From Platanthera guangdongensis (Eukaryota > Streptophyta > Magnoliopsida > Asparagales > Orchidaceae), in assembly GCA_039583875.1 (NCBI GenBank), contig CM077161.1:65601885-65665884 (forward strand): a stretch of DNA of 64,000 nt, written 5' to 3'. The first letter of the stretch is position 1; the number at the start of each line of letters is the position of its first letter. Below are positions 4,507-54,555 of this stretch, in pieces. The position numbers and the translations under genes were made by a program. The notes beneath the pieces were generated by a model that saw only the letters and a list, made by a program, of their open reading frames with translations, was not told the DNA's origin and searched no databases.

Positions 4507-4990
4507 GATACTTGCAAGTTATTTTCATTTATATCTGCTTCTTACACTTCTTCTTGCACATTTTAGCAGATGTTTACAAGTTCCCCACATGTACTTGCAA
4601 GTTATTTTTCTTTCATATCTGCTTCCTACTCTTCTTTTTGCAAAGATTAGCAGATGTTTGCAAGTTCCCTTTATGTACTTGCAAGTTATTTTTCTTTCAT
4701 ATCTACTTCTTACTTTTCTTTTTATAGAGATTAACAGATGTTTGCAAGTTTCTCTCAGGTAATTACAAGTTATTTTTCTATCATATCTTCTTCTTACACA
4801 TCTTTTTTCAGAGATTAGCAGATGTTTGCAAGTTCCACTAAGGTACTTGCAAGTTATTATTCTTTCATATCCGCCCCTTCCTCTTCTTCTTGCAGAGATT
4901 AGTATGTGTTTACAAGTTCACTTCTGATACATGCAAGTTATTATTTTACTATACCCCTCCTACCTTTGTTTTGCAGATCTCAGTAGAAGG
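4507..4990 (+). repeat. 84-bp tandem repeat, about 5.7 copies
   Basis: Units begin at about 4509, 4592, 4676, 4760, 4844 and 4928, with spacing 83, 84, 84, 84 and 84. Each unit starts near GTACTTGCAAG, runs through a long pyrimidine tract and ends TTTTGCAGAGATTAG...CAAGTT. Because 84 is a multiple of three, a 28-residue repeat can be read through part of it (4512-4727), but its hydrophobic Phe/Cys-rich product is not credible as a protein. Confidence 0.85.
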
Positions 4991-5695: not shown

Positions 5696-5700
5696 TCTGT

Positions 5701-8013
5701 TGTAACGCCCCGAAACTCAAAGGAGCAAAGGGAGACATTTTGGGCCAGTTTGGGTTCTGGCTGCAGGCACACGGCCTGGGACACGGGCATGTCCCAGGGC
5801 ATGTCGAGCCTGTGTCGACACTGAGACGGGAAGTCGACACTTTGGTCTCGACATTGTGTCGAGACTGGGCACACGGCCTGCGACACGGGCGTGTCGCAGG
5901 GCGTGTCGACCCGTGTCGACACATAGCCGCGAAGTCGACACTCTGCATTCGACGAAGTGTCGAGACATGGCACACAGCCTGCAACACGGGCGTGTCGCAG
6001 GGCGTGTCAACCCGTGTCGACACTCGTCCCGGGAGGTCGACACTTTGGTCTCGACATTGTGTCGAGACAAGACACACGGCCTAGGACACGGGCGTGTCCA
6101 AGGCTGTGTTAGTAGGTTGACAATCTTCGCTCGACGAAGTGTCGAGTGTCGAGACCGTGTTCACGGCCTGGGGTCCAGGCGTGTTGAGGTGACATGGGTA
6201 AGGACACGGGCGTGTCCTAGAACCCGTGCAGTGCTCGGGTTGATTTTGGGGAAAAATGATAGGGGTACACGGCCGGCCACACGGCCGTGTCACATGGAAG
6301 ACGGGCGTGTCAGCTCGAACACGGGCGTGTTCGATACCCGTGTGAGGTTCCAGGCGAGCCGATTTTGACGGCGAATGAGGCACACGGCCCTGGACACGGG
6401 CGTGTGCCAGGCCGTGTTCGGTCCAGATTGGGCATTTCAATCCCGAATCAAAGCCGTTCATTTCCTTATTTTGAGATCCAACGGCTGGGGGTTGTTCCTG
6501 AAGGGATATACCCGGGATTGGACTTAGAAACCCTCACTTTTCATGAGTGGTTAGCTTTCTAAAACCTTAGAGAAAGTAGAGAGCCAAGGGAGGAAGAAGG
6601 AGCTAGATCCCGCCATTGGAGGAGCTTCAAAGCTCCAAATCGCGAGCCGACTCCAGATCCACGGAGGCAAAGCTAGTGCGGTACTTTTCATCCGATTACT
6701 TTTCAATGGCGCCAAAGAGGAACGCTAGGGTAACGATCCTCATCTTGTGCATGAGTAGCTCTCTTTGTTTGCATAGGAAGCCCGCTCTCGCGAGTTTGTA
6801 GAGAGTTGGAGGCGTTCCTTCGGGTAGATATGTGAAGTCCCCGTTGTTTAGAGTCCGTAAGCGAGAACGGACATGGGCATGATGTGCGGAGCCTACCCGA
6901 ACATGTTGGTCTGGATCGGTGATGTTGCATTGCATAATGCTGGAGAAGACTCCGTGCTATTGGTTGTTTTTCGGGTTTTCTACGCGGTAGATTGCAGCAG
7001 GGAGCCTTGGGGACTAACCCAAAGGTGCACCCGGAAAACTGGGCGGATACGAGATCTTGCCAACTTGGTGGCCTGAGAGCCAACTTGAACATAACCGGGT
7101 TATGTGAATTGTGATGGAAATGGGACTCGGTGGAAGTTTGACCCGCGCAAATGGCTTAAATTGTCGTTGCGATGTGAGCACGGGTTAGATGGAACCGTAC
7201 CCGTTCTATGTCGTTCGGTTAAAGAGACCTAAAGGCACGTGGCACTTGCCGTTGGCATAGATTAGGGTCTTCGGCGGTCAATGGCTTAAATTGTCGAGAC
7301 CCAGGCCAGGAAGACAAATTGCTCATAGGTTTGGCCGTCCAAAATGTCGGTGGTGAGTCCGGAATGTCTATGGCTTTAATTGACGTGACATCGACCGGTT
7401 CACCGAGAATGTGCCCTGAGAGCACGGGGCGTGTGGCCATGAGAGCCAACGTCTGTGATGAAATGGCTAATTATATATTGCTCGCTTATGCTAATGAAAT
7501 GCAGGGAAGGAGCATCGCCGCCCCGAGTTTGGGGCAGGATCGTTATAATTTGGTCAGCATTGCTGACCGTTGCCTTGTTTTGCCACCGTGCAGTGGTATG
7601 TTGCTTGCAGGTGCAGCTGAACCAAGCGGTCAATAGCGGGCTAAAGCCCGAATGCGAAGCCGGCCCTTGAAGGCCTAATTGGAAGTGTTTACTGCTTTAT
7701 TCATGTGTGACCGGCCTGCGTGCCGTGGTTTGTAAAACATGTAATTTGAAGAGAAATATTTTGTAAGGCCTTAAGGCTCATTTTGGGTATTTTGTATAAC
7801 ATTCCTATTTTATATTAGTGGACATTCATGCTCTAATGCTGGGTTCTTTATTGCAACTTTTATAAAATACTTCCGCTAGAATGCTCTGTATAGGACGTTT
7901 GAGATTGGTTGGATGGTTTCCATAAGTAACCACCCGGTCTGTCTGTAGTATATGGCGTCGGGCCCCGGCCAGACCTACTGTTATATACTATGCGACGGAT
8001 AGGGGGTGTTACA
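5701..8013 (+). repeat. Gypsy-1 5' LTR
   Basis: About 2.3 kb, TGTAACGCCC...GTGTTACA. The first 0.75 kb is a dense array of short palindromes (5768-6421). The rest has the conserved CTTCCGCTAGAATGCTCTG and TATGGCGTCGGGCCCCGGCC blocks, which recur inverted in Gypsy-2, Gypsy-3 and the solitary LTR. The 3' LTR start differs by one extra G (TGGTAATGCCC at 12900). Confidence 0.93.
5768..6421. repeat. Palindromic-word array in Gypsy-1 5' LTR
   Basis: Tens of copies of ACACGGGCGTGT and ACACGGCC...GGCCGTGT are nested as larger inverted repeats, for example ACACGGGCGTGTC flanked by GGCCTGGG and CCCAGGCC. They alternate with TCGACACT and GTGTCGAG words. The array is repeated in the 3' LTR at 12968-13621. 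Confidence 0.9.
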
Positions 8014-8236: not shown

Positions 8237-9391
8237 GTGACCAGAAGTGTTGTTGGGCCGTTAGAACGCCGAGTTTCTGAGGATAATAGTGCACCGGATG
8301 TTGCTCCTGCAACACCTCTGTCGGCTGAGAATATTCGATTGGTGGCTGAAGTGGTGTTGGCCGTGATAAATGCGCAGCCTGCAAGGCAAACACAGCAGCC
8401 CGCTCCTGTGATGGAGCAAGAACCTCTTCAAGAGGCTGAGCCGAGGAGAGTGGAGCAAGTGGTTGTGGAACCGGTGGTGCCGAGGAGGGCAACTGAGAGG
8501 CAGCTTAAGCATGTAATGAGCTTTAACCCTCCGTTATTCTCGGGGTTGGGAACCCCATCTCAGGCTGAAGACTGGCTCTCCAGGGTGAAGAGAGTCATGA
8601 CAGCGATGGAGACGGAGGAGTGGCAAATGACCACCATCGCTACGTTCCTTCTGGACGGGGAAGCGAGAATGTGGTGGGAAGGATTGGAGCTGCACTTATT
8701 GAGAGGTAGGCAACTTGGTGATGTCTCGATGGAAGAGTTCTCGAGATTGTTCTTGGCTAGATACCTCCCTTCGACGCAGAAGATAGCGTTGGAAAACGAA
8801 TTTTTGAAGTTGGTTCAGGGTGATAAGAGCGTGGATGAATATCTCCACGAGTTCACTCGTTTGAGTCGATACGCTAGCTCCACCATCGTGGATGAGGAGC
8901 GCAAGACTAATCGCTTCTATGAAGGCTTGAGAGATGAGTTGAGATTACAACTCTCGGGGCCGATGACGCAGGGTTTCTTAACCTTGGTCAATACTGCCCG
9001 GTCCTTGGAAAAGGACATGAAGAATGTACAAGCAAAGAAAAGCTTGGGTGAGAAGAAATCTGAATTTAAAGTGCCAACTACTTCAAAGTTCGGCTATCGG
9101 AGGTCTTTCAAGAAGCATAGGACTTCGGGTCCAGCTCCTTCTGGTGCTTCTGGGACGACTACGAGTCGGACCCCGAGCGCGTGTTTTACTTGTGGAAAGA
9201 CGGGGCACTTCGCCCGTGACTGTTGGAGCGGACGTCCTAAGTCCGAGAGGAAGCTGGGAGCTACTTATGAGGAGAAGGGAAAGGTGGTGGAGTCGACTGC
9301 ATCCCATTATGCTCCGGCCCAACCAAGGGTCTACAATCTTGGCCAACAGGAGGACATCAAACAGGCTGATGTGGTGACAGGTACGGTTTAA
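8237..9391 (+). CDS. gag: Gypsy-1 Gag (capsid/nucleocapsid precursor)
   Basis: An unbroken frame of 384 codons encodes the structural protein that packages element RNA into cytoplasmic particles. Residues about 100-250 form a retrotransposon gag domain with Trp-rich helices (MWWEGLELHLL, EEFSRLFLARYLP). A basic linker and a CCHC zinc knuckle, CFTCGKTGHFARDC, follow at residues about 315-328. The frame starts with GTG right after an in-frame TAG. The first ATG codon is only at residue 59, yet residues 1-40 are conserved in Gypsy-2, so the true start probably lies in an upstream exon. Translation of unspliced RNA stops at 9389-9391, inside the candidate gag-pol intron. Confidence 0.93.
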   Translation: MTRSVVGPLERRVSEDNSAPDVAPATPLSAENIRLVAEVVLAVINAQPARQTQQPAPVMEQEPLQEAEPRRVEQVVVEPVVPRRATERQLKHVMSFNPPLFSGLGTPSQAEDWLSRVKRVMTAMETEEWQMTTIATFLLDGEARMWWEGLELHLLRGRQLGDVSMEEFSRLFLARYLPSTQKIALENEFLKLVQGDKSVDEYLHEFTRLSRYASSTIVDEERKTNRFYEGLRDELRLQLSGPMTQGFLTLVNTARSLEKDMKNVQAKKSLGEKKSEFKVPTTSKFGYRRSFKKHRTSGPAPSGASGTTTSRTPSACFTCGKTGHFARDCWSGRPKSERKLGATYEEKGKVVESTASHYAPAQPRVYNLGQQEDIKQADVVTGTV

Positions 9392-9456
9392 TTTATAGCA
9401 AGTCAATTTCTTTAAATACTTGTTATGCACATGTTACCTTACCACTGCTTGTTTAG
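9381..9456 (+). other. Candidate spliceosomal intron between gag and pol, Gypsy-1 (76 nt)
   Basis: The donor context is GTGACAG|GTACGG and the acceptor GTTTAG|GATTTG. It is 76 nt (76 mod 3 = 1) and contains the gag stop. Joining 9380 to 9457 completes a Gly codon and moves from the gag frame into the pol frame, which needs that shift. Equivalent segments lie at 30319-30409 and 51139-51216. Splicing is inferred; no transcript data are available here. Confidence 0.55.
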
Positions 9457-12400
9457 GATTTGTATTGATTTGTGAAAATCCGACACGAGCACTCTTCGAT
9501 ACGGGGGCTTCACACTCCTTCTTGTCCGAAGGATTTATATCACGCATCGGAGTCCCTTCTTCGATGGCAAAGGATAAGTTGGATGTGTTGTTGCCCAATG
9601 GGTGTTCGATGCGAGCGGATAGGATCTGCATTGTTAAGATTCGTATTGGGGAGCAGGAGTTCGACCTGCGGGAGTCTTTACTTCCGTTGGTGGAGTTCGA
9701 CGTCATATTTGTCATGGACTGGCTCTCGGAGCATCAAGCCCATATAGATTGCGGTAGCAAGGAAGTCAAGCTGGGAGCAAGTCGTGAGACGACTTTTACG
9801 GGCTTAAAGGGGTCGAGCATGACGTTGATGTCTGCTCTTCAGGTGGTGAAGGCGGTTCGTGCCGGAGCAGAACTGTTCTTTACACTAGTGGAGGTTGCAA
9901 AGCTGAAGCCCATGTTGGATTGTATTTCAGTGGTATCGGAATACCCTGATGTGTTCCCCGCAGATCTTCCTAGAGCCCCACCGCAGAGGGAGATAGATTT
10001 TACGATTGAGCTAGTGCTAGGTGCAAAGCCTGTGTCACGATCTCCTTATCGGCTGGCGCCTAAGGAAATGGCGGAGCTGAAAGTTCAACTGCAAGAGTTG
10101 TTGGAGCAAGGGTATGTGCGCCCGAGTTCTTCGCCTTGGAGCGCACCGGTCCTCTTTGTTAAGAAGAAGGACGGAAGCTTGAGGCTATGTATTGATTATC
10201 GGTAGCTCAACAAGCTGACGGAGAAGAACAAGTACCCGATCCCACGGATTGATGATCTTTTTGAACAGTTAGTCGGGTCGACGGTGTACTCGAAGTTGGA
10301 TCTCAAGGCTGGGTACTATCAGCTGCGAATAAGGGAGAGTGATATCCCGAAGACAGCGTTTAGTACGAGATACAGGCATTATGAGTTTACGGTCATGCCG
10401 TTTGGGCTGACTAATGCGCCGTCAGTGTTCATGAATTTGATGAACAGGACTTTCAGGGAGTACTTGGACTATTTCGTGATCGTCTTCATCGACGATATTT
10501 TGGTGCACTCGCAAACTGAGGAAGATCACTTCAAGCATCTTCATTTGGTGTTGGAGACGCTAAGGAGAAATCAGTTGTATGCCAAGTTCTCGAAGTACGA
10601 GTTTTGGCTATCCTCAGTGGCGTTCCTCGGGCATATAGTAAGTGGAGAGGGTATTGCTGTGGATCCGGCGAAGATTATTGCGATACAGGAGTGGCCTGAG
10701 CTTGTTACGGTAGCGGATGTCCGGAGTTTTCTGGGGCTTGCCGGCTATTATAGGCGCTTCGTAGAGAACTTCTCGCGGATAGCGTTACCTCTCACTACAT
10801 TGACGAGGAAGGAGCATAAGTTCGTTTGGACGCCTGAGTGCGCGGGAGCTTTTGAGGGGTTGAAGTGTCGGTTGACCACGGCGCCTGTGCTGAGTTCGAC
10901 ATGTGGGACCGAAGGCTATGAGATTTATAGCGATGCTTCGGGCAGCGGTTTGGGTTGCGTGCTACTACAACACGGAAGTGTAATAGCTTTTGGCTCGAGA
11001 CAGCTAAAAGTGCATGAAAGGAACTATCCGGTCCATGACTTGGAGTTAGCGGCCGTGATTTTTGCCTTGAAGCTGTGGAGACACTATTTGTACGGTGTGA
11101 AGATTGATATCTACACCGATCACAAGAGCCTGAAGTATCTTATTGATCAGAAGGATCTGAATATACGGCAGCGTAGATGGATGGAGTTCCTGGGGGACTA
11201 TACATTCAAGATCCATTACGTGTCAGGTAAAGGGAATGCGGTTGCGGACACGCTGAGTCGCCGAGCCCCAGCTCAAGCCAATTGGCTATCGGTGCATGAC
11301 GAGCGGTTGGTGCGAGAGTTGGAGGCATTGGAGATTGTTTGTGTGGACAAGCAATCAAGTGCTGAAGCAGTTCTGAATTGGACTGAAGTCCAATATGACC
11401 TGGCTGATCGTATTCGGCAGGCTTTGGATATGGATGCTCATATGAAGCAGTTCATGGTAGAGGCTCTGGATGGGTCAAATTCCCAATTCGTCGTGGAGGA
11501 CGGATTGCTTTGGAAAGACGGTCGTCTGTGCGTCCCAAGTGTGGGCAATTTACGAGTGGAGTTGTTGTACGAGGCACATAATACCAAGTACTCGATTCAC
11601 CCGGGGAGCACGAAGATGTACCGTGATGTGAAGAAACTGTTTTGGTGGCCGGGTTTGAAAAAGGATGTGGCGCTATACGTAGCGAAGTGCCAAACTTGCG
11701 CCTTGGTAAAGGCGGAGTGCCAAAAGCCGGGAGGATTTCTTAAGTCCTTGCCTATTCCGGAGTGGAAATTCGACGACATCTCTATGGACTTTGTGCACGG
11801 TTTGCCAAGGTCGCAGAAGGGGAATGACGCCATTTGGGTGGTTGTTGATCGATTAACGAAGGTGTCGCATTTTATTCCGCATATGAAGGATGATCCGGTG
11901 GAGAAGTTGGCAAAACTTTATGTGGATAACATAGTACGGCTTCATGGTGTGCCCCGCTGCATCGTGAGTGACCGAGATGGGCGGTTCATGTCCAATGATT
12001 GGAGGCTTGTGCAGCAAATGTTGGGAACAAAGCTGAAATTCAGCACAGCCTTCCATCCGCAAACGGATGGGCAGACCGAGAGGGTCAATAGAACTATGGA
12101 AGACATGCTCCGCATGTGTGTCTTGGATTTCGGAAAGCAATGGGAAGACCACCTTTATTTGGTGGAGTTCGCATACAATAATAACTACCAAGCGAGTATT
12201 CAGATGGCGCCTTTCGAGGCCCTATATGGTAGAAAATGTCACACGCCGTTGTCTTGGTTAGAAACGGGTGAGTCAAAGTTGTATAAGTGATCGGAAGTGG
12301 AGGGTGCTACTTCTTTGGTGCGAACCATTCGGGAGAGGTTGCTTATCGCTCAGGACCGGCAAGCGAAATACCATAATGCCAAGCACAGGAAAGTGGAGTT

Positions 12401-12820
12401 TGCTGTGGGTGATTATGTGTACCTAAAGATCAAGCCGTTCAAGGGTGTCTCGCGGGTGCGGCGATTGAAAAAGCTAAGCCCGAGGTACCTTGGACCGTTT
12501 GAGGTTCTGGAGCGAGTTGGTGAAGCGGCCTATCGGTTGAAGCTTTCAGTGGAGCTTAGTGGTTTACATGATGTATTCCACATTTCGGTGATTCGGAAGG
12601 CGGTGCAAGAGCCTACGCAAGTGATCGCGGTTGATCAAGTGCCGATGGATAGTGGGCTAACGACAAAGGTCAAGCCCATGCGGATTGAGGACTCTGAGGT
12701 CAAGCGGCTACGCAATAAAGAGATCAGGATGGTCAAGGTCCGGTGGGACAATTGCGGTCGTGAGGAGCTCTCTTGGGAGCGATAGCAGACTATGCTTGAC
12801 GAGTATCCGGAGTTGTTCTG
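9457..12820 (+). pseudogene. pol: Gypsy-1 Pol: protease, reverse transcriptase, RNase H, integrase, chromodomain-like tail (broken)
   Basis: This is the replication polyprotein. The protease motif DTGAS is at 9498-9512. The reverse transcriptase active site FIDD is at 10485-10496. The RNase H Asp (SDAS) is at 10932. Integrase has an HHCC zinc finger about 11590-11700, catalytic Asp at 11788 and 11970, and Glu at 12078. The GPF module is about 12490 and a chromodomain-like tail about 12660-12815. Stops TAG (10203), TGA (12288) and TAG (12783) interrupt one otherwise continuous frame. The first and last replace Glu codons seen in related copies. No ATG precedes the protease in this frame outside the candidate intron, so Pol is probably made as a Gag fusion. 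Confidence 0.93.
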
Positions 12821-12863
12821 CTCAGGTACAAATTTTGGTTTCGTACATGTCTTTCCTTTATAT

Positions 12864-12899
12864 AATTTCGTGGACGAAATTCTTTTAAGAGTGGGAGAG
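12864..12899 (+). promoter_or_regulatory. Gypsy-1 3' hairpin and polypurine tract
   Basis: The perfect hairpin AATTTCG-TGGA-CGAAATT (12864-12881) is followed by CTTTTAAGAGTGGGAGAG, which abuts the 3' LTR at 12900. The purine tract primes plus-strand DNA synthesis. The hairpin is also found before the tract in Gypsy-2 and, imperfectly, in Gypsy-3. Confidence 0.85.
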
Positions 12900-13811
12900 T
12901 GGTAATGCCCTGAAACTCAAAGGAGCAAAGGGGGACATTTTAGGCCAGTTTGGGTTCTGGCTGCAGGCACACGACCTGGGACACGGGCGTGTCCCAAGGC
13001 GTGTCGAGCCTGTGTCGACATTGAGACGGGAAGTCGACACTTTGGTCTTGACATTGTGTCGAGACTGGGCACACGGCCTGCGATACGGGCGTGTCACAGG
13101 GCGTGTCGACCCGTGTCGACACTTAGCCGCGAAGTCGACACTCTGCATTCGACGAAGTGTCGAGACATGGCACATGGCCTGCGACACGGGCGTGTTGTAG
13201 GGCGTGTCAACCCGTGTCGACACTCGTCCCGAGAGGTCGACACTTTGGTCTCGACATTGTGTCGAGACAAGGCACACGGCCTAGGACACGGGCGTGTCCA
13301 AGGCCGTGTCAGTAGGTCGACGATCTTCGCTCGACGAAGTGTCGAGTGTCGAGACCGTGTTCACGGCCTGGGGTCCAGGCGTGTTGAGGTGACACGGGTA
13401 AGGACACGGGCGTGTCCTAGAACCCGTGCAGTGCTCGGGTTGATTTTGGGGAAAAATGATAGGGGTACACGGCCGGCCACACGACCGTGTCACATGGAAC
13501 ACAGGCGTGTCAGCTCGAACACGGGCGTGTTCGATACCCGTGTGAGGTTCCAGGCGAGCCGATTTTTACGGCGAATGAGGCACACGGCCCTGGACACGGG
13601 CGTGTGCCAGGCCGTGTTCGGTCCAGATTGGGCATTTCAGTCACGAATCAAAGCCGTTCGTTTCCTTATTTTGAGATCCAACGGCTGGGGGTTGTTCCTG
13701 AAGGGATATACCCGGGATTGGACTTAGAAACCCTCACTTTTCATGAGTGGTTAGCTTTCTAAAACCTTAGAGAAAGTAGAGAGCCAAGGGAGGAAGAAGG
13801 AGCTAGATCCC
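12900..13811 (+). repeat. Gypsy-1 3' LTR, first part
   Basis: Homologous to 5701-6608 of the 5' LTR, including the palindrome array (12968-13621). It is interrupted after AGCTAGATCCC by the copia element. ATCCC at 13807-13811 is the left copy of the copia target duplication. Confidence 0.92.
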
Positions 13812-15204
13812 TGTTAAATTTTCTCAACGTGGTCAGCAAGGTAGCCCAAACGCCAAATTAATATCTTCGGCACTACCCAGTTCGCACGTTGAACCAGCGG
13901 AAACCAAGGACTAGAGGTACAAAGGTAAATCCCAACAAACAATGGAAGCACAAGCAGGTCTATTATCATTCACTTCTTTACAATGCGAGGCATACATAGC
14001 GAGACATGATTTCGCTAGTATCACAACTGTAAACAGAAAGCACCAAAAAACAAGCCGGGCGGACAGCACCGGAGTCCGCCGAGACCGCTAGGTCACCGAG
14101 GTCGCTGAGACCGCTGAGCTCGCCCGAGCTATGCTGCAATCCGCCGAATAGACCCGGAGTCCGCAGAAGCCGCGAGGCCGCGCGGACACACCGTTATTCG
14201 CCTCCTGTTGAACTTGAACTGAGGAACACCCGTACCAGCCTGAAGCCGGCGGACAGGTTATTGAAGCTGGCAAAAATGAAACAGAACTGACAAGCCGCAG
14301 AGCGACCTCCTGCTGAGTCCGCAGAGACCGCACACTTCTAAGTACTGACCGAAGTCACAGCCAAACTCCTGGCTCCTTGAAGCTATCCGCGCGACCTGCA
14401 CACAGCAAACCGTCAGCCTGAAACAATCCGCGCGGACTGACAAACACAGACCGCAGCTCCTTGCACACCCCAACTTACTGTTCACTCAAGTTATTGTAGA
14501 TGTTCCACGGGGGTCCTATTTATAGGCAAGGTGAGGAGTGTGGTCACCGCCCAGGAGATAGCGACACCACCCCAGCCCGCGCGATAGCAAAAACACCGTC
14601 CGCCGAGTCCGCATGGACTTAGCCGGATACCAAGGAAAACCGCCAGGAGCTAGGCAACCATTGGCGAACCCTCTCCAGTCCGCCCAAGCTGTGCGAACAA
14701 GACATCAGCCCGCAAAGCTCCAACCACTGCAAGACAGCAACCCCCTTCAATGGCAGTCCGCACCAACCCGAGGCATTCCGCAAGACTCACACCTCAATCC
14801 GCCACAAGTCCACGACCAAAGGAAGACAGCAACAGTCCGCCCGGTCACAGCGGACTTGGCGGATACCGCGGACACCAGTCCGCAAGCTTTTCCGCGGACA
14901 TGAGCCAACCCGCCTATCAGCACAAGCTTTCACCCGCGGCCACTGAGCAATGCACCAGTCCGCAACCTCCATCCGCTCAGGCCGCTCCTTGGCAAAGCCA
15001 ATCAGCACACCCTATCCGCAGAATCCAGGCCGCATAGTCCGCGGACTCCATGCAACAACCCGCTCAGAAGACAGCCGGCTTCTCACTAGACTTTCCACCA
15101 GGCCGCACATCACAGTCCGCCCAGTCCGCCTAGTGCGCCAAACCTGTCCGCCCCAGGCCGCCCGGCCTGTCCCGTCACCCACTTCCACTTCACAAATTTC
15201 AACA
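13812..15204 (-). repeat. Copia 3' LTR (left copy, 1393 bp)
   Basis: It matches the right LTR except that about 277 bp are absent, corresponding to right-LTR sequence between two ACCGCGGACAC repeats (20429 and 20704). It is rich in AGTCCGC/GCGGACT words. The minus-strand TATA box TATAAATA lies at 14517-14524. Confidence 0.92.
14517..14524 (-). promoter_or_regulatory. TATA box in copia 3' LTR
   Basis: TATTTATA on the + strand reads TATAAATA on the coding strand, inside GCCTATAAATAGGA. This is a canonical plant TATA box in the orientation of the element. Confidence 0.7.
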
Positions 15205-17546: not shown

Positions 17547-17552
17547 CCCCCC

Positions 17553-18479: not shown

Positions 18480-19243
18480 GCAGTCCCGCTTGAAGTGCCC
18501 TCGCTGATGACACCGGTAGCACTTCATATTCTTCTTCCAGTCCTTAGGAGCATTGCGGCCTGCACCTTCTTCTTCTTCTTCCCTTCCCATCCTTTCTTCT
18601 TGCCTGAGAAGAGAGCTTCGTTGCCTTCCTGATTCAGGTTCACTCCAGCCATCTGCCTTGCTAAGCTCTCCTGCGAGGCAAGCAGATTCTCCAGCTCAAG
18701 CAACGACGGCTGAGTAGCCCACCCTTAAACAGATGTAACAAAGGCCACATTCTCATTCCGCAAGCCGCGGACAATGTGCCTTTTCATCTTTGCCTCAGAG
18801 ATAGGCTCATCAGGATCCAGTGCCGACAGCTCAGCACACAAGCTCTTCATCTTTAAGAAGTACTTGGAGATGGAAAGGTCTCCCTGAGTTGCCCTGGCCA
18901 ACTCATTCTCCAGGAACTGAAGCCGTGCCACATTCTTCCTATTGAACAACTCATCAATGGTTGTCCAAATATCAGCAGCCGACTCACATCCAATGATGTG
19001 ATCAAACAGTTCCGGAGACACGGCTCTCTTCAGAATGAACTCCGCCTTAGCATTTGTCCTTCTCCAGAGCCTAACCTGCTCAGCAGTACCGAAAGCAGCA
19101 GTGACTTCCTGCCTGTCGTCACCGCCGACGACTTCCCACAGCTCCTCGCAAAGAAGATAACTCTTCATGCACGACTTCCACTTCTTGAAGTTAGTCGGCG
19201 TTAAGAGTTCAATGCCCAGACCCCTTGCAAAACTCCCTTCCAT
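18480..19243 (-). pseudogene. gag: Copia Gag (broken)
   Basis: The likely start is ATG at 19241-19243 (MEGSFARGLGIELL), which matches the usual start of copia Gag; the open frame extends upstream to 19306 without an ATG. The capsid-like domain runs to 18728, where a TAG stop (18725-18727) interrupts it. Beyond this a frameshift lies in an AAG-repeat tract at about 18570-18595. The zinc knuckle CYRCHQRGHFKRDC is at 18480-18521. The protein would coat element RNA in cytoplasmic particles. Confidence 0.9.
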
Positions 19244-26953: not shown

Positions 26954-29900
26954 TTACACAAACAGCTCAGGGAACTCTTCTCGCATGGTCTGCTCACGCT
27001 CCCATGTCAGTTCTTCACGGCCGCAGTTGTCCCACCGGACTTTTACCATATCGACCGTCTTGTTCCGCAACTGTTTCTCGGCTCGATCTTCGATCTGAAT
27101 GGGTCTAACTCTCGTTGTTAGCCCATACTCCACCGGCACACGATCATCCGCGATCACTTGAGCTGGATCTTTCACGGCTTTCCGCAGTACCGAGATGTGA
27201 AAAACATCATGTAATCCACCCAAGTCCGTCGACAGAGCTAGCCGATACGCCGCTTCGCCAATTCGCTCAACCACTTCAAAAGGACCTAAATATCTTGGAC
27301 TCAACTTTTTCAATCGTCGAATCCTGGAGACACCTTTGAATGGCTTGATCTTCAAGTAGACCCAATCGCCAACCGCAAATGCAACGTTCCGGTGCTTGGC
27401 GTTGTAGTACTTCGCTTGTCGATCTTGAGCAATCAGCAATCTCTCTCGAATAGTCCGAATGGTTGAGTTTGCTTCATCCACCTCATTTGGTTTAACAACC
27501 CGGGCTTCACCCGCTTCTACCCAAGCCAAGGGAGTACGACACTTCCTTCCATATAGAGCTTCATATGGTGCCATCCCAATGCTTGCCTGGTAGCTATTAT
27601 TATATGCAAACTCGACCATATAGAGATGATCTTCCCATTTCTTTCCGAAGTCAAGGGCGCACATTCGGAGCATGTCCTCCATTGTTCTGTTGGTACGTTC
27701 AGTTTGGCCATCCGTTTGGGGATGAAAGGCCATACTGAAAGTCAATTTCGTGCCCAACAGTCGGTGAACTAGCCTCCAATCATTTGACGTAAACCGCCCA
27801 TCTCGATCACTTACGATGCTCCGAGGAACACCGTGAAGCCGCACAATCTGGTCCACATATACCTTTGCCAAACTTTCAACTGAATCATCCCGCCTGTTCG
27901 GAAGGAAATGTGCTACTTTGGTTAGCCGGTCAACTATCACCCAAATGGAATCATTTCCTCGCTGCGATCTTGGCAACCCATGCACAAAATCCATGGAAAT
28001 ATCATCAAATTTCCACACTGGGATCGGTAGTGACTTCAAATATCCGCCCGGCTTTTGGCATTCCGCCTTCACCATCGCACATGTTTGGCATTTGGCCACG
28101 TAAAGGGCAACATCTTTCTTAAGCCCTGGCCACCAGAAAAGCTTCTTCATATCGTTGAACATCTTTGTGCTCCCGGGGTGAATGGAATACTTCGTATAAT
28201 GTGCTTCATACATCAGTTCTTCCCTCAGTTTCCCCACATTTGGGACGCACAAACGGCCATCTTTTCGAACAAGACCGTCATTCCAGGTGAATTTGCCCTC
28301 TGGCCCTTCATTCACATAGCGTAAGAGATCTTCATCCAACTCCGTTGCCCGTCGAACTCGGTCCGCAAGGTCACATTGCACCTCGATCCAGTTCAAACAT
28401 GCAGTGGTAGTGGAATTCTTGTCAACACAATAGATCTCCAATGCTTCCAACTCCTGGATAAGACGTTCATCATGCCTTTGTAACCAATTTGCTCTAGCCG
28501 GAACTCGCCGACTCAACGCATCCGCGACAACATTTCCCTTCCCGGGTGTATAGTGAATCTCGAAAGTGTAATCCCCAAGGAACTCCAACCACCTTCGTTG
28601 TCGCATGTTCAACTCTTTCTGCTCCAAAAGGTACTTGAGGCTCTTATGATCCGTATAGATCTCCACCTTCACGCCATAAAGGTAGTGTCGCCACAGCTTC
28701 AGTGCAAAAATCACCGCTGCTAGTTCCAAATCATGGACGGGATAATTTCGCTCGTGCACCTTCAGTTGGCGTGAGCCATAAGCAATAACCGTTCCATTCT
28801 GCAGAAGAACGCAGCCTAAGCCGCTCCCTGAGGCATCACTATAAATAACAAAACCATCGGTCCCACATGGCGAAGACAACACCGGCGCCGTGGTTAACCG
28901 AATCATCAGCTCTTCAAAAGCTCGTGCACACTCTGGCGTCCAAACGAACTTCTGATCCTTTCGCGTCAGTGTGGTTAGCGGCAAAGCGATCCGCGAGAAG
29001 TTTTCAACAAATCTTCTATAGTAGCCCGCAAGTCCAAGGAAACTCCTGACCTCGGCCACGGAAGATAACATTGGCCACTCCTGTATGGCCCTTATCTTCG
29101 CTGGATCCACTGCAATGCCCGCTCCACTCACCACATGGCCCAAAAATGCCACTGACGATAGCCAAAACTCGCACTTCGAGAACTTGGCATAAAGTTGATT
29201 TTGCCTCAACGTATTCAACACCAACCGCAAGTGAATCTCATGTTCAGCTTTGGACTTCGAGTACACCAGGATATCATCGATAAATACAATCACAAACAGA
29301 TCCAGGTACTCGCGAAAAATACGGTGCATCAAATCCATAAACACTGAGGGCGCATTACACAATCCAAAGGGCATGACTATGAACTCATAGTGCCCATAAC
29401 GCGTTCCAAATGCGGTTTTGGGAATATCACCTTCCCGAATCTTTAACTGGTAATAACCAGACTTCAGGTCCAACTTCGAATAGACGGTAGAACCTACCAG
29501 CTGATCAAATAACTCATCAATCCGGGGGATCGGATATTTATTCTTCTCGGTCAGCTTATTCAGTTCACGGTAGTCGATGCACAATCGCAATCCACCGTCT
29601 TTCTTCTTTACAAAAAGCACAGGCGCGCTCCAAGGTGACATACTTGGGCGTATATACCCTTGCTCTAGCATTTCTTGCAGTTGAATCTTCAATTCCGCCA
29701 TCTCTTTTGGCGCGACGCGATATGGCGAGCGGGCCACAGGTTTCGCACCTGGCACCAACTCGATCGTGAAGTCAATCTCCCGCTGGGGTGGTAGCCCAGG
29801 GAGATCCGTGGGAAACACATCTGTAAATTCTGCCACAATCGGAACCTCGCACACACTGGCCTTAGGCTCAACAGCCTGAATTAGTGCAAAGTAACACTCC

Positions 29901-30355
29901 GCACCCTTCCGAACAGCCTTGACTACCTGGAGTGCAGACATCAATGTCCCGCCCACTCCTCGCATACCCGCAAACTTTGTCTCCTGTTCGGTATTCTGGC
30001 CCAACGTGATTTCTTTGGACTGACAATCAATCATAGCATGCTGTTCCGCAAGCCAATCCATCCCAAAAATCACATCGAATTCCGATATTGGCAAAACAAA
30101 TGCGGTTAAACAAAAATCCCGACTTCCTAGCTGAACCGCCACATCGCAAGCTTGATCCGCAAGCATCCAACAGCCATTCGGCAACACCACTCTGACATTA
30201 TCTGTCTTTGCACGACTGGGTATCCCAAGCCGCGTTATAAACTCACAAGACAGAAAAGAATGCGATGCACCTGTATCAAATAGTGCTCGCGCCAGCGTGT
30301 CCCGAATCATCACAAAACCTATGACAACCATGTCACACATACAAATCGCAAACAA
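26954..30355 (-). CDS. pol: Gypsy-2 Pol: protease, reverse transcriptase, RNase H, integrase, chromodomain-like tail (unbroken)
   Basis: A single frame of 1133 codons. Protease DTGAS is at residues 27-31, reverse transcriptase FIDDIL about 357, RNase H SDAS about 505. The integrase zinc finger is about 720-757. The catalytic Asp, Asp and Glu are about 790 (SMDF), 850 (VSDRDG) and 888 (QTER). GPF module about 1015; chromodomain-like tail about 1080-1125 ([18 protein letters not shown]). It would process particle proteins, copy RNA to DNA and insert the DNA; chromodomain tails can steer insertion to chromatin. The frame has no ATG at its upstream end (first codon TTG at 30355). If the candidate intron is spliced the coding exon begins at 30318, fused to Gag. 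Confidence 0.96.
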
Positions 30356-30409
30356 AGAGGTACGAAGCTAAGCATACAAACATTAGCATAAGCAAAACTA
30401 AACTCATAC
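30319..30409 (-). other. Candidate gag-pol intron, Gypsy-2 (91 nt)
   Basis: Donor GTCACAG|GTATGAG at 30410/30409 and acceptor GTCATAG|GTTTTG at 30319/30318. At 91 nt (91 mod 3 = 1) its removal completes a Gly codon and shifts from the gag to the pol frame. The gag stop lies inside it (30333-30335), and a branch-point-like GCTAATG is present. Confidence 0.6.
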
Positions 30410-31533
30410 CTGTGACCACGTCACTCTGCTTGATGGCCTCCTGCAGGCCAAGATTGTAGACCCGGGGTTGCGCTTGTGAGGCAGAGGAATCCACCACCGC
30501 CTTTCCTTTCTCCGCATAAGATGCTCCCGCCTTCTTTTCACTCTTCGGCGGCATCCGACAATCTCGTGCAATATGCCCCATGCGGCCACAATTGTAGCAG
30601 ACCCGAGTATCTGGCTTGGAAGTAGCCCCTGACGTTGCTCCCGTTGCAACTGATGAAGGAGCTTGTCCACTCGGCTTGGACTTCTTACCCCATTTCTTCT
30701 TATAGAATGGTTTCCCAGCTCGGGGCGCCTTCCACTCCGGTTGCGTCACAGTCAAAGCTCTCTTTCCTTGCACCCTTTTTCATATCCTTTTCCAACGCGG
30801 TTGCAGTGTCAACCAATGCTTGGAAACCTTGGTTCACAGAACTTGACACAAGGAACCTCAACTCGTCCCTCAGGCCTTCATAGAACCTATTGGTCTTCCG
30901 CTGCTCATCAGCAAATATCGACCCCGCATACCGCCCCAAGCGCGTAAATTCATGCAGGTACGCGTCAACACTGCCCTCACCTTGAGTCAACCGTTGGAAT
31001 TCATTTTCCATGGCTATCCGCTGAGCCACAGGAAGGTGCTTTGCTAGGAATAATCGAGAGAATTCATCCATGGAGACTTGAGCTAACGGACGACCCGCCA
31101 AATGATGTAACTCTATCTCATCCCACCACAAGCGAGCTTCTCCTTCAAGCAAGAATGTAGCTAAGGTAACCTTCTGACGCTCCGCCGTGCCAATCGCCGC
31201 CATAACTCTCTTGACGCGCGATAACCAATCCTCTGCCTGCGTCAGAGTACCCGCTCCCGAAAATGTAGGCGGATGGAAACTCATGAACCGTGTTAGTTGC
31301 TTCTCAGCTGCTCGAGGAGCCACATCCACTACAGGTTCCGGCCTTGCCTCCACCTGTTCTGGCCTAACATCCACTTGTTCCTGCCTAAGTGGCTGGCCTT
31401 GGATCATGGTAAATAATGCCTCCGCAACTAACCGCACATGCTCTGCAGACGGTGGAGGTGTAGGCACCTCAGCTGGTGCCCTACTCTCATCAGAATGCTG
31501 GGACGCAGACGGCCCAGCTCCACTTCGTGTCAC
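30333..31533 (-). pseudogene. gag: Gypsy-2 Gag (one frameshift)
   Basis: Codon 1 (GTG at 31533) follows an in-frame TAG that doubles as a 3' splice-site-like sequence (CTTTAG). The first ATG codon is at residue 43. The gag domain (residues about 85-200, with LWWDEIELHHLAG and DEFSRLFLAKHLP) is intact. An extra G in the GGG at 30773-30775 throws the frame off, and the original frame resumes as the 146-codon frame ending at 30333. That second part has the zinc knuckle CYNCGRMGHIARDC at 30558-30599. The role is capsid and RNA packaging. A sequencing or assembly error in the short homopolymer is possible. Confidence 0.92.
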
Positions 31534-31752: not shown

Positions 31753-34216
31753 TGTAACAACCCCATCCGTTCATATGATATATTCTAGAAGGTCCGGCCG
31801 GGGCCCACAGGATATACCACAAAACAGTCGGTGAAGGTACAGGATGATACCAGAGTAGCGCATCGTACCTATCACAAGCATTCTAGCGGAAGCCTAAACT
31901 ACTTGAACTCCTCATGAATGTCCAAATATAAACTCCACATTTTATATATATATAGGAATGTCTTACAGCATCAAAAGTATTGGCCTTAGGGCCTTACAGG
32001 GCTTTCACACAGTGGCCTAAAACAAATTGGCGCGCAGGCCGGCCACAAAAGAAAACACTCAAAAGAACATTAGCCTTCGAGGGCTAGCAGCAGCAGCAAC
32101 ACCAGCAGGAGCATCAACCTCTATGCGACCCGCTCGGCTCTCCAGCACCTGTGCAAGAACAATCCACCCAACGGTGGCAAACAAAAGCAACGGTCAGCGT
32201 TCAGCTGACCAAATTATAACGACCCTACCCCTTCTCTCGGGGCAGCGGTATTTTTCCCTGCAGGCATATCATATCACAAGTATGGCAATATATCAAAATG
32301 TGCTTTCACGCACACAAGCCATCACAACCGTTCGCCGCCCGGCCCAACGGTCCGTGCACTCAGGGCACATTCTTGGTGTTCTGGCAACCTCTTGCCCACC
32401 ACCGTATCAGGGTTATCACCCAACGGTAAATCTCTTGAGCATTTACTCCATGGCGTGCAGCCGGAGTTAGTCCTCGGACACCGGGATGGCCCGTAGCCCC
32501 CCATTATGTCATGGCGCGCAGGCCGAAGACTCTTGCTATGCGCTCCAACAGACCGTACCTTTGGTCTCACATCGGACGGACATAGCGCAGGTCGGATCCT
32601 CCACCCCCCGTTGCTCAAATCGCCTTGCCTTCTCCGAGTACAGCGGACTCATGGCTATATCAAAGGCGCGGGTCGGTCTCACCAATCCTGTTCCTGGCAT
32701 TTAAGCCTGGGCATAAGCCTTACACCCATTTTCTCACAACAACAGCGGGTCTTTCCTGGGCACACCAGTACTTCCTGTTACTCTCTTCACAGGTGGACAC
32801 CGCACAAGCACAAATGTCAGGGGTCTTTCCTGGGCATACCAGTACTTCCTGTGACTCGCTTCACAGGTGGAAACCCTATGACATCAAGCATCACAAAAAG
32901 GGCTTTTCCTGGTCCCACCAGGACTACCTGTGCCTCATTCACAGGTTGGACCCAAAACCATCACAAGGCTATTTTCCTGGGCTACCACCCCAGTACTTCC
33001 TGCTACTCCTTTTCGCAGGTATAACCCGAGACTCCTTACACTACACGTTATCACGGAGTCTTCTCCGGTTCGTATGCAACATCACCAATCCAGACCAACC
33101 TGTCCAGATGGGCTTCACACAGCATGCCTATTCCGTACTCATTTCCGGATCTATATGCACAACAAAAGGGGATTTCAAGAATCACCCAAATGACTCCCAA
33201 AAGCAGCCACCTCTTGGTGGGGGAATCAAAAGATATGCCAAAACAGAAGCCTTCACATGGCTAGGAAGAAAAGTCGTTACCCTTGACGATCGCTTCGGTG
33301 CCATGGCTTGAAAGCTTGCTTGCAAGACTCGCAAGAGCGTTTCCTCCGCAACGCTGGCTTCGGATCTCTCGCCGGTAAACCGCAGCACCACCAACAGCAG
33401 CCCCCTTCCCTTCTTCCTCCTCCTTTCTCTCACTCTTTCTCTCTCTCTTGAAGAAAGATGAAGGCCAATTCAAAGTGAGGATCCTTTTCTGAATTCGGCC
33501 CTTAAGGAAAAAGAAGAAGAGCTTTCAGCCCTTGGATCCAGACTGAAGAAATGGACGGCCACGATTCTGCCAAAAACACACATTTTGACCCGACACGGCT
33601 TCGAACACGGCCGTGTTCCTGGCCGTGTGCCTCAAGCGGCGGTCAACCGACCTATCCAAACCAGTGACACGCCCATGGGACACGCCCGTGTCATGGGCCG
33701 TGTGACCAACACGCCTTCAGACACGCCCGTGTCTGTGGCCGTGTACCTGGGTGAAAAAAATCCCAAATCATCCCGAGACTTCACACGGCCTGGGACACGC
33801 CCGTGTCCCCGGCCGTGTGCCCAGACACGGTACCCAGACACGCCCTGTCAAAATCATTCGGCGGGCTGAGCTCGTCGTTCCGATTTGACACGCCCTGTGA
33901 CACGCCCGTGTCACAGGCCGTGTCACCTATCTCGACACTCGACACTCGACACTCGACGATCTCGACACTCGACGATCTCGACACTCGACACTCAATGACA
34001 CGGCCATGGACACGCCCGTGTCCTAGGCCGTGTGCCTCCTCTCGACGATCGTCGAGCGAAAATCGTCGACACCTAAGTCGACTGTCGACACTGCCTTAAC
34101 ACGCCCTGCGACACGCCCGTGTCGCAGGCCGTGTCCACCTGACACGCCCTGGGACACGCCCGTGTCCCAGGCCGTGTCACCCAAATTTTCCCGTTTCAGA
34201 ACTTTGGGCTGTTACA
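31753..34216 (-). repeat. Gypsy-2 5' LTR (right copy)
   Basis: Nearly identical to the left LTR, same length, and followed by the target duplication AAGTG. Visible differences include two compensating one-base indels (near 31803 and 32239) and mostly C/T or G/A changes. Confidence 0.95.
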
Positions 34217-35624
34217 AAGTGTCACGCCCCAGGGTCACGCCTGACCCGGGCGTGACATATGGGCGTGTACTTCAGCAATTCCGCCCGTCACCTCCAGCAT
34301 TCAATTTCAGCTCAACAAAGTCACGCCGCAAAGAACACGCCCCAGGTACACGCCCCACCAGGGCGTGACTTGTGGGCGTGTACCTCAACTACTTCGTCAG
34401 AATTCAATTCTTGCCCGAAAAAGTCGCACCGAATGTGTCACGCCCCAGGGTCACGCCCGACCAGGGCGTGATAGGGGGGCGTGACCCGACCCAAAAAATT
34501 CTATAAATAGAGCCCAACTCTAAGGGTTCAGGGACACCTTTTGCTTTAAGAGGGGAGGTTCTGTCCTTTGTATTTCTGAACTTTTTAAGCATGTCTTTCC
34601 ATTTTTAGTTCTTAGCTATAGCTTTATGCTTTCCCTGTAGTAGTTCCTAGCTTCGTTCTGTAGTATAATGTTAATGATAGCGTAGTTTACCTTTCCATGC
34701 ACTTGTAATCTCTGGTTTTCAAGCTGTAAGATCTCTGTTTCTATTAATAAAAATTGTTGTTTTCTTTTACGTTTCTGCTCTGTTTTCATTTTCTTCTTCT
34801 ACTCATCCCCCCTCTTCCATCTCACCATGATTAACTAATCCTCCATGTACTCGATGTTAATGATCCGAGGTTCGAGTGATTAGGTTATGATGCTTTGAAT
34901 CTTACCTTTTCTTTTTAGGGTTTAGCTTTGAATTACTCTTGATTTATCATGGGTTTGAGGTATATCATCGATATATACTCTCCACCTTTGCTTTCATTCT
35001 GGGCAAGCCGAGAGGCCGAAAGTTTGAAATGAGCACTCAAGAGTAAAGGGAGTTGTTCGCACCCCTCGAGAGAGGCAGACGTTCAAATCTCCCGGATTGG
35101 AGTAAAATCCATTAGAGGGGTTCACCGCGTAAAGCGAGTTTTAGGCCTCCAATTTAGGCGAAAGTCGGTCGGACCTTCCTAAACTCAGTTAGGCACGGCC
35201 TTCGAGAGAAGCGTGTCAATATTCATGGAACCTCCACGGTCAAGGACCTTTACCCTAATTAGCTTAGGTTTATTTATCGTATTTTTCTAACCACTCTTGC
35301 CGAGGTGATTTCTGATCGAGTGCATTTTCCCTTTCATCGTTACTAAGCTTAAGTTAATCGCTCTTTTAGCTCTCTTTAACTTTTCATGCAAGTAGCCCTC
35401 TTTCATTGCAAGTAGTTCTTTTCCTTTAGCACGTTTAACTTTCTTCTAAAAAACTTAATTTTTCCGTCGATAAAATAATAGATTTCGTGTGAATAAGCTT
35501 ACTCAACTGTTCCCGGATTTCAATACGACACTTGTGTCCCATAGCTGCATTTCGATAGGTATACTTGCCTTGATGAATTGTTAGTTTGGTTATTTTCTCC
35601 TTGCAGATATCTAAGAGACAATCA
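34217..35624 (+). repeat. Athila-type 5' LTR, second part
   Basis: Resumes after Gypsy-2 (34217-34221 is the duplicated AAGTG) and ends GAGACAATCA at 35624. It contains CACGCCC palindromes to 34486, a TATA box at 34502 and an AATAAA at 34746. Confidence 0.93.
34502..34509 (+). promoter_or_regulatory. TATA box of Athila-type 5' LTR
   Basis: TATAAATA within TTCTATAAATAGAG. It is present at the same place in the 3' LTR (44199-44206). AATAAA at 34746-34751 (44443-44448 in the 3' LTR) is a plausible poly(A) signal. Confidence 0.75.
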
Positions 35625-35630
35625 AGTTTT

Positions 35631-51138: not shown

Positions 51139-51216
51139 CTAGCACAAACAAATGTAAGCTAACATATAAAAAGGTAACAACTACATAAAGTTAAACTACT
51201 ATAATTTAACTCATAC
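51139..51216 (-). other. Candidate gag-pol intron, Gypsy-3 (78 nt)
   Basis: Donor GTGACAG|GTATGAG at 51217/51216 and acceptor GTGCTAG|ACTTCG at 51139/51138. Its removal would give an Asp codon before FVLIF, at the place where Gypsy-1 and Gypsy-2 have Gly. At 78 nt it keeps the frame, but an in-frame TAA lies inside it. Confidence 0.5.
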
Positions 51217-52360
51217 CTGTCACCACATCATCTTATTTTATGGCCTCTTGCAGACTAAGGTTATAAACTCTAGGCTAGGCTGGAGCATGGTGGGACGTGG
51301 TTGACTCCACCGCCTTCCCTTTTTCTTCATAGGTTGCTCCAGGCTTCCTCTCTGACTTTGCACGTCTGCTCCAACACTCACGAGCAAAATGCCCCATCTT
51401 TTCGCAGTTATAACACGCTCTTGGGACTCGACTTGTGGTTGCCCCCGCCGCACCAGACGAAGGGGCTGAGTTCGAAGTCTTCGACTTCTTGTTTCATCTG
51501 CGGAAACCCGACTTTGCATTCGGCACTTTGAACTCTGACTTCTTTTCCCGTGGATCATTCTTCTCTTGCACTTTCTTCATGACCTTTTCTAATGACCGGG
51601 CCGAATTGACCAAGGCTAGGAAGCCCTGCGCCTTAGGCCCAACAAGGAGAAGTTGTAGGTCGCCACGTAGACCCTCATAGAATCGGTTGGTATTTCGCTC
51701 CTCTTCAGTAAACATAGCACCAGCATAAAAACCCTACCGCGTAAACTCATGGAGATACTCATACATGCTTCTGCCTCCCTGAGTCAGACCAAGGTACTGA
51801 TTCTCCATCTCAAGCTTCTGAACAGAGGGTAGATATTTGGCCAAGAACAACCTTGAGAATTCCTTAATAGGAACATCCGCAAGTTGCCTTCCCACTAAGA
51901 GATGAACCTCCAACTTGTCTAACCACAGCCTCGTCTTTCCCGATAAAAGGAAGGTCGCAATGGTGGTCTTCTGCAACTCAACAGTTTTTGTGGCTGTCAA
52001 GAGCCTCTTTATCGTAGAGAGCCAATCCTAAGCTTGAGTTGGCGTTCTAACCCCATCAAACCTCGGAGGATTAAAGCTCATTACATGCTTGAGCTGCTTC
52101 TCTATAGCTCTCCTTGTTGCTACCTGATCAATTGTCGCGCGCTCTACCACTCCCGGCTCTGCCGCCCTAATCGGTTCTTGCTCATTAACATGTGGTACTT
52201 GGTTCATTTTCTCTGCAGGTTGGGCATTAATCATAGCAAAGACTGCTTCAACAAACAATCTGATGGTTTCCGTTGAAGGAGGTGTTGTAGGCACGTATCT
52301 CGGTGCACTACTTTCTGTCGATTACGGGCATTTCGATTGCCCAGCACCGCTCCTAGCCGC
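51217..52360 (-). pseudogene. gag: Gypsy-3 Gag remnant
   Basis: Codon 1 is GCG at 52360, directly after TATTATAG. The gag domain survives in three pieces (52294-52028, 52000-51734, 51715-51494), separated by stops. The zinc knuckle CYNCEKMGHFAREC is at 51374-51415 after a frameshift. A TAA lies at about 51232 just before DDVVTG. Confidence 0.88.
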
Positions 52361-52583: not shown

Positions 52584-54555
52584 TGTAACACCCCCATCTG
52601 TCGTATGGCATATAACAGAAGGTCCAGCTGGAACCCGACGCCATATACCAAGGACAGTCGGAAGGGTTACATAAAAATACCAAAACCATACAACTATAAC
52701 TACTCGTCCTACACAGAGCATTCTAGCGGAAGCTTTTAAATAGTTATAAAGAACACATAATTGATATATCAATAAACATGAATGTCCATAACTACCACAG
52801 GAATGAAATAACCACTACACTGAAAGGACTTGGCCTTATGGCCTTACAAGAGTTTCTCTTAACAAAGTAGTGTTTTCCATACATCGGCTCGCAGGCCGGC
52901 CACACATGACAAAACAAAATACAGTTATTCTCTTTGGCCTTCAGGGACAGCTCAGCAACTTGGGCTTCGGCCCGCTATTTAGCACTCGGCTCTACAGCAC
53001 CTGCAAACAACATTCCACCGCACGGTGGCAAACAAAGCAACAGTAAGCCAAAGCCGATCAAATTATAACGACCCCGCCACTTACTCGGGACAGCGGTGCT
53101 CCTTCCCTGCATTTTGTTAGCCCAGCTAAACAATAAAAATGCAAATATACTACGCCAGAGGTGTAGGCTCTCACGGCCCAAACACCATGTGCACTCAGGG
53201 CACATTATCGGTGAATCCGGTCAATTCCGTGGCTTCACCACCATCCCCAAGTTTGCAATAACGTGAGCATTTTTTCCTTTATGACCACTGTCTAAGGCTC
53301 TCGACTATGCTAACAGCCAGTCCCTCTTTGGGTCTCTTGCACCGAACCACATAGCTCGTGTCCGATTCCACTTGCCCGTTGCACACAACGCGTAGTTCAC
53401 CTTAAGACATACGCATGAGCCAAGCATAGTTATGTACAAGGCCGGCTCCCAGGCCACCAAATTAGCAGAATTATGTTTCCGCTCAGATTTTCGGGTGCGC
53501 CTTAGAGTTAATCCCCAAGGATCCCTGCTACAATCTACCGTGTAGAAACCCGCAAACACAAAACACAGAGTCTTCTCCGGCAAATCATACAAAATGCAAC
53601 ATCACCGATCCAGATCAACATGTCTGGGTAGGTTTCACACACAATGCTTATGTCCAAACTTCCCTTCCGGACTCTATAGGCAACACAAGGGGGACTATTC
53701 CTGTCAACCCCAAGGAACACCGCACACTGACCGCACACTCGCGGGAGCGGGTTTCCTTATGCAAAATAAGGAGAGCTTCACATGCTCAAGTAGATAATCG
53801 TTACCCTTATACTATGCTTCTGAGCCATGGAAAAAACTATACATATAGAAGGCTTCACAATGGAATTTCCTTCGCGGATCCACTCTCTATTCTCAAAATG
53901 GTGCTCTGATACTCCGCCGGCGGCCGGAATACTCCCTCTCCTTCCTCCACTCTTCAACTCCTTAGAAAGAGAATGATAAAGAGCAAATGAGGAGTTAAAC
54001 CTCCATTCCTGCCCTTAACAGAGCAGGAACACATCTAGGCCGTTGGATCTTAATTAAAGAAAATGAACGGCTCAGATCTGCCCAAAAATAAAAAAATCTG
54101 GGCCGAACACGGCCTCGCACACGGTCGTGTCACAGGCCGTGTGCCTCGATCCAGGCACGATTGTCGAGCACAGAAACTGACACGGGTCGAGACACGCCCG
54201 TGTCTCGAGACACACCCGTGTCTCAACCTGACACGCGCGTGTCGGTTTCCAACACGCCCGTGTCAGTTTTCGACAGGCCCGTGCACTATGGCTGTGTCAC
54301 CAGTAACTGCCATGCCAACCGACACGACACTTGGGAACACGGGTGGTGACACGGGTATGCACACGCCTCTATTATTGGACACTCTCGTGTTACACTGCTA
54401 TGTTTCCTATCGTGTCCTTCTCTGGACACAGCCGGCCAACACAAAGAACCACACGGCCTTGGACACGCCCGTATACTAGGTCGTGTACCCCTATACAGAC
54501 AACAAAAAAATACTCTTGGACACGACCAGCTCGATACGATTTTTGGGGCGTTACA
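52584..54555 (-). repeat. Gypsy-3 5' LTR (right copy)
   Basis: Matches the left LTR with many substitutions and small indels, so the insertion is clearly older than Gypsy-2. Palindrome array at 54106-54545. Confidence 0.92.

Follow-up and report, generated by a model that had tools for sequence, protein, structure and literature searches.

A probable spliceosomal intron at the Gag/protease border of orchid chromoviruses that may separate Gag from Gag-Pol

Three Ty3/gypsy elements with paired LTRs in a 64,000-nucleotide stretch of the orchid Platanthera guangdongensis (the window) carry a short GT...AG segment between gag and protease at the identical phase-1 position, and judging from its sequence this segment is almost certainly a spliceosomal intron. 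Retention of the intron would end translation soon after Gag, its removal would open the way to Gag-Pol, and it probably works as a switch between the two products. We infer that the two RNAs occur side by side and in this way would set the ratio of Gag to Gag-Pol by their own proportions; as a whole, we consider this the best explanation and a rather likely one. Retroelements need more Gag than Pol, and how most plant Ty3/gypsy lineages with a single ORF manage this is unclear. The chromovirus clade described here offers a testable answer and poses an evolutionary question, namely why an intron persists through rounds of a process that should erase it. Published sources are cited by PMC number.

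Results

The elements Gypsy-1 (plus strand), Gypsy-2 and Gypsy-3 (both minus strand), hereafter G1, G2 and G3, presumably belong to the Tekay/Del type. Their features are as follows.

5699..8013, plus: G1 5' LTR; 3' LTR in two parts, 12899-13811 and 21046-22447, around a nested element; identity about 96%
8237..9391, plus: G1 unspliced Gag frame with Retrotrans_gag and zf-CCHC; GTG start, first ATG at codon 59
9381..9456, plus: G1 candidate intron, 76 nt, phase 1, CAG/GTACGG...TTTAG/GA; in-frame TAA at 9389-9391
9457..12821, plus: G1 protease-to-chromodomain region, broken by stops, one of them in RT
31753..34217, minus: G2 5' LTR; 3' LTR at 24372-26836; 99.35% identical
30410..31533, minus: G2 gag region; the frame shifts between 30808 and 30779
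30319..30409, minus: G2 candidate intron, 91 nt, phase 1, CAG/GTATGA...CATAG/GT; in-frame TGA near the 3' end
26954..30318, minus: G2 pol exon, open; RVP_2, RVT_1, RNase H, Integrase_H2C2, rve, SH3_Tf2-1 and a weak chromodomain (Pfam)
52584..54555, minus: G3 5' LTR; 3' LTR at 45723-47680; 86% identical
51217..52360, minus: G3 gag region with stops, two further ones near the gag end
51139..51216, minus: G3 candidate intron, 78 nt, phase 1, CAG/GTATGA...GCTAG/AC; in-frame TAA
47754..51138, minus: G3 pol region, broken

None of the three copies is clean: G2 has a frameshift in gag, G1 a pol stop in RT and G3 stops in gag. The chromodomain of the G2 pol exon scored below the Pfam cut-off (Chromo, E 2.4e-4, 21.4 bits against 25.1), and for RNase H the general Pfam scan of this exon reported only the RT-linked models. 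Other repeats share the window. The G1 3' LTR is interrupted at 13809-21049 by a minus-strand element of the Ty1/copia type (RVT_2), whose LTR pieces are about 97% identical. A long Ty3/gypsy element occupies 34216-45322 between LTRs at 34216-35624 and 43913-45322 (98.4% identical) and has a single frame of 958 aa that matches Gag and, weakly, protease, followed by RT and integrase. At 4522-4941 lies a tandem 84-nt repeat of at least four overlapping copies with 80-85% identity.

The intron candidate precedes the protease in all three elements. The donor splits the last VVTG codon behind its first base, and the acceptor supplies the two remaining bases; the next residues are FVLI in G1 and G3 and FVMI in G2. 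AG stands at each of the two borders of the segment. Five more protease places were found in the 200 kb adjoining the window, two of a divergent family (O1 and O2) and three of the FV type, all of which carry the segment (77 nt in N1 and N3, 78 nt in N2). An earlier note on this DNA had described the segment as a candidate intron, and on re-reading the sequence we recovered the same coordinates, lengths (76, 91 and 78 nt) and frames, the GT and AG ends, and the stops within the segments. The pyrimidine it placed before ACAG is in fact G, C and G in the three elements. It also saw a TAG just before the FV(L/M)I block: the TAG is present, but the two remaining bases of the split codon stand between. 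This codon is Gly, as claimed, in G1 and G2 but Asp in the window copy of G3; in N2, a close neighbour copy of G3, it is Gly.

Left unspliced, the gag frame runs into the segment and ends there after GTV in G1, after GMS in G3 and after 25 residues in G2, so that retention stops translation within about 25 codons. Removal, as had been proposed, joins Gag to the protease, and VVTG and LFD(T/S)GA are then 11 residues apart. This spacing is exact in 67 of the 74 motif-bearing proteins among 149 database proteins (75 had no motif match); six of the other seven have an 11-spaced copy further along, and one, P0022, does not. Furthermore, the RVP_2 match of the database protein P0009 (residues 407-535, profile 4-133) crosses the junction point without a break, whereas in the G2 pol exon alone the match begins at profile position 19.

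Translation might also arrive at Pol through ribosomal frameshifting, readthrough of stops or re-initiation, and gag-pol frameshifting is a common retroelement strategy (PMC3735527). The layout of G2 would suit such recoding, as its gag and pol frames overlap within the segment, where the pol frame also contains ATGs. In G1, however, the gag frame ends at 9391 and a pol-frame stop lies at 9396-9398; the frames do not overlap, and therefore a frameshift could not join gag and pol. In G3, more than one stop would have to be read through, and no pol-frame ATG occurs in the G1 or G3 segment. We rejected recoding because no layout for frameshifting, readthrough or re-initiation is common to the three elements, and we rate it as highly improbable.

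Plant introns are U-rich and GC-poor compared with exons (PMC3735527), and the three segments follow this norm. Their T content is 0.42-0.50 and their GC content 0.26-0.36. Over the 150 nt upstream T is 0.16-0.18 and GC is 0.49-0.58, and over the 150 nt downstream T is 0.31-0.35 and GC is 0.46-0.48. Each segment is the most T-rich and GC-poor stretch of its own gag-pol region: of the sense-strand windows as long as the segment, 4510 in G1, 4487 in G2 and 4410 in G3, only 29, 16 and 8 are at least as extreme in both respects, and these start at 9379-9408, 30411-30395 and 51218-51209, that is, at the segment itself. The donor motif CAGGTAYG by itself is not rare (5 in the window against 2.28 expected, with at least 5 in 9 of 100 shuffles). 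The gag-pol regions contain 8, 15 and 9 AG/GTR donors, of which one each, the segment donor, pairs with a suitable acceptor when an AG 60-110 nt downstream, T of at least 0.40 and GC of at most 0.40 in between are demanded, thresholds that were chosen after the segments had been seen; in G3 another AG, at 109 nt, could also serve as acceptor. A branch-point-like CTTAC lies 16-17 nt before the 3' end in G1 and G3. In G2 no YTNAY branch-point motif was found near the acceptor, where GTGAC stands at 15 nt instead.

The exon flanks have changed mostly at third codon positions right up to both borders. Between G1 and G3, changes at the three positions number 10, 10 and 39 of 80 each upstream and 12, 9 and 32 downstream. 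For G1-G3 the segments are 59% identical and the flanks 75-78%; for G1-G2 the segment value is 46% and the flank values are 66% and 56%, and for G2-G3 the segment value is 61% and the flank values are 62% and 54%. The interior has diverged, as the earlier note stated, but for G2-G3 not faster than the flanks. We also considered whether the interior of the intron is specially constrained among G1 copies. Counted per copy, non-deamination changes showed an apparent 9-fold deficit (3/2052 in the intron against 53/3909 in the exon); by alignment columns the figures are 8/76 and 20/144 (p 0.53), and the idea was dropped.

We scanned the genome of P. guangdongensis (4.25 Gb, 274 contigs) for further copies. 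In 39 siblings of G1, a set biased towards keeping the segment by a query that contained it, GT is kept in 38, AG in all, the length of 76 nt in 38 and the in-frame TAA in all. The conservation of GT and AG that had been expected of family members is thus found here as well as in G1-G3 and N1-N3, and the expectation that retention stops translation soon after Gag is borne out by the frames of G1-G3, N1-N3 and, with the same TAA, all 39 siblings. For G2 the query was exon 2 only, and the best 40 of 2,449 first-look candidates were scored, all about 100% identical over 309 nt; these numbers point to a very recent burst of the G2 family. Among the 39 best matches besides the window copy, 37 keep the segment, including L113 with an inner deletion. 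Of the other two, L072 is broken upstream but retains the 3' part of the segment, and L073 lacks exactly the segment. Since 37 of these 39 youngest matches keep it, most templates appear to have been unspliced RNA. The genome would in this way record how often spliced RNA was copied, namely once among these 39.

Copies without the segment are nevertheless numerous. A 24-nt exon-exon junction pattern with at most 2 mismatches matched 638 + 654 = 1,292 times genome-wide, against 1 + 2 = 3 matches of the reversed pattern. From 100 listed matches we retrieved 20, all exact and hand-chosen for variety. L073, L074 and L075 match G2 at 98.3-99.7% identity across 300 nt in both directions and are short of precisely the 91 nt of its segment; L076 matches G2 at about 93%. 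Seven copies share 90.7-95.7% identity with G1 on either side and two, L081 and L087, share 85-88% with G3; the rest are more distant, L079 lacking a matching upstream flank. Ten of the 20 have no stop over about 200 codons as they stand. Of six intronless copies whose leader was retrieved, four have it intact, including a primer-binding-site-like sequence, as a template requires; of the other two, one was covered only in part and one gave no match.

An exon-only tree of 60 rows, 40 with the segment and 20 without, places the intronless copies within the G1, N1/N3, G2 and G3 groups (its intron-bearing rows were chosen for closeness to G1, the bootstrap is not quite settled, and five intron-bearing siblings, L011, L014, L027, L039 and L040, remain unplaced outside it). 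On this tree the intronless label changes 10 times, with at least four changes forced by starred branches; shuffles average 17.1 changes, so the label is still clustered. The scattered positions indicate more than one loss of the exact segment, in families whose segment sequences differ, and such repeated exact loss points to splicing followed by reverse transcription, whereas repeated exact deletion hardly explains it.

A reading without splicing would take the intronless copies for an older continuous lineage or for repeated chance deletions, and the segment for something inserted or left by decay. A continuous ORF is indeed found in relatives, beet chromoviruses among them (PMC3605345), and AG at both borders is a 2-nt match that could guide a deletion. 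However, L073-L075 are nearly identical to G2 and the intronless copies are interleaved with intron-bearing ones in four groups. The loss is exact in families that differ in segment sequence and length, the G1 and G3 segments are related (59%), and a segment stands at the same place in O2. We therefore judge an origin without splicing to be very improbable. Exact absence from reverse-transcribed copies, as expected of a spliceosomal intron, was found in G1-, G2- and G3-like families and supports the intron reading of the earlier note. That note would have counted continuous siblings without the segment as evidence against splicing; such siblings exist, yet they are near-identical and interleaved and so argue for it. 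As far as these DNA copies can tell, they show spliced RNA leaking into new copies.

The divergent family, which shares only about 36-40% of its protease residues with the nearest query, bears on the age of the intron. O2 (L055, near 9160-9320) has a 96-nt, phase-1 segment in the same Gly codon (CAG/GTATGT...ACTTAG/GC) with T 0.42 and GC 0.31 against flanks of T 0.21 and GC 0.58, and its removal regains the spacing of 11. The shared position suggests that the intron is older than the three families of the window. In O1 (136138 of the 200 kb in L041-L060), GC replaces GT and a TAA is present. The O2 segment is a multiple of three without an in-frame stop; its retention would add residues and give a longer Gag-Pol rather than end Gag, so a stop on retention may not be universal.

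Related proteins fit the joined and the unspliced reading. The P. zijinensis models P0009, P0011, P0015, P0024, P0033 and P0058 read VVTGF(V/F), the joined form, and the Gag-only model P0121 ends in VVTGTV like unspliced G1. The annotation of P. zijinensis was made with MAKER and RNA-seq (PMC9023349). We rejected the joined gene models as proof of splicing, because intronless DNA gives the same protein and the models could stem from intronless copies. In an RT tree of database proteins only, read with one very long row set aside, nine FV-type rows and three truncated relatives fall on one side of a branch with a support of 93/90 that is not starred; counted strictly, the FV label changes five times, since the truncated rows carry no label. 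In viral_contigs and genome_contigs, 4 and 38 stretches matched the pattern for relatives and none was confirmed.

The region before gag shows features of its own. Gag begins with GTG or GCG at 8237 (plus), 31533 (minus) and 52360 (minus), directly after TATAG or TTTAG, with a YTNAY motif 22-25 nt before these starts and the first in-frame ATG at codons 59, 43 and 43. Six of seven LTR copies contain GTAAGG and the seventh GTAAGT, and P0009, P0011 and P0015 have different first exons joined to the same V-TRS. The arrangement resembles a leader intron that extends across the primer-binding site; a search for a conserved start codon in a leader exon found none.

Discussion

We propose that a clade of chromodomain-type Ty3/gypsy elements carries a short spliceosomal intron at the Gag/protease border, within the Gly codon of V(V/I)TG. 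Unspliced RNA would yield Gag plus a few residues, ending at the intron stop, and spliced RNA would yield Gag-Pol. The main template for new copies would be unspliced RNA, which would let the intron survive retrotransposition, and a small share of spliced RNA would also be reverse-transcribed and leave scattered intronless copies. With 1,292 junction matches and half of the 20 retrieved copies free of stops, copies encoding Gag-Pol only may function or be helped.

The intron could be real and still be a passenger that is nearly always spliced or has no regulatory use, with the ratio of Gag to Pol set otherwise. The O2 segment without a stop and the open frames of ten intronless copies would agree with this, as would the single ORF of most plant groups, which needs no intron (PMC6317226). 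On the other hand, copying of spliced RNA should erase the intron, yet nearly all of the youngest G2 matches keep it, and the retention stop is kept in G1, G2, G3, N1-N3 and every G1 sibling. We regard the passenger role as unlikely and favour the switch between Gag and Gag-Pol.

A wider scheme would let two introns sort orchid chromovirus RNA. The gag-pol intron would be the Gag/Gag-Pol switch, and a leader intron, running from the LTR across the primer-binding site to TAG/GTG, would supply the Gag start codon from an LTR exon. Fully spliced mRNA could then not prime reverse transcription, intron-retaining RNA would be the genome, and intronless copies would come from RNA with only the gag-pol intron cut. 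We put this forward very tentatively and consider it distinctly unlikely.

In the open-licence PMC literature covered by our searches, no chromovirus with an intron between gag and protease came to light. A 2025 review describes plant LTR elements as generally without introns and names Ogre and EVADE (PMC12786077). In sunflower, two elements with spliced isoforms have been described, and the expressed set of that study contains no Tekay members (PMC7730604). Our elements resemble Tekay/Del-type plant chromoviruses in domain order, in the VVTG...LFDTGA start of the protease and in LTRs of 2-2.5 kb. However, beet elements of the Tekay clade are described with a single uninterrupted ORF (PMC3605345). 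The rice centromeric chromovirus CRR also has spliced transcripts, but splicing there removes rt and makes two ORFs (PMC3735527). The Ty1/copia elements BARE1 and EVADE share with our elements a short U-rich intron in the gag/pol border region and a control of Gag output by splicing (PMC3735527, PMC12786077), and BARE1 has a CAG/GTAT donor and an intron of 104 nt (PMC3735527). The sense is opposite, though: in both elements spliced RNA serves for Gag only, as described for BARE1 (PMC3735527), and Gag-Pol comes from unspliced RNA, whereas here splicing would give Gag-Pol. Two-ORF layouts with a separating stretch are described for Bianca and Ogre, and a subset of Ogre transcripts is spliced between GAG-PROT and RT (PMC6317226). 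The Ogre intron works similarly to the one proposed here, but Ogre belongs to the non-chromovirus Tat lineage of Ty3/gypsy, and the segments of G1-G3 do not lie between protease and RT. What appears to be new is the proposed Ogre-like intron function in a chromovirus host, with an intron of 76-96 nt placed before the protease at the border with Gag.
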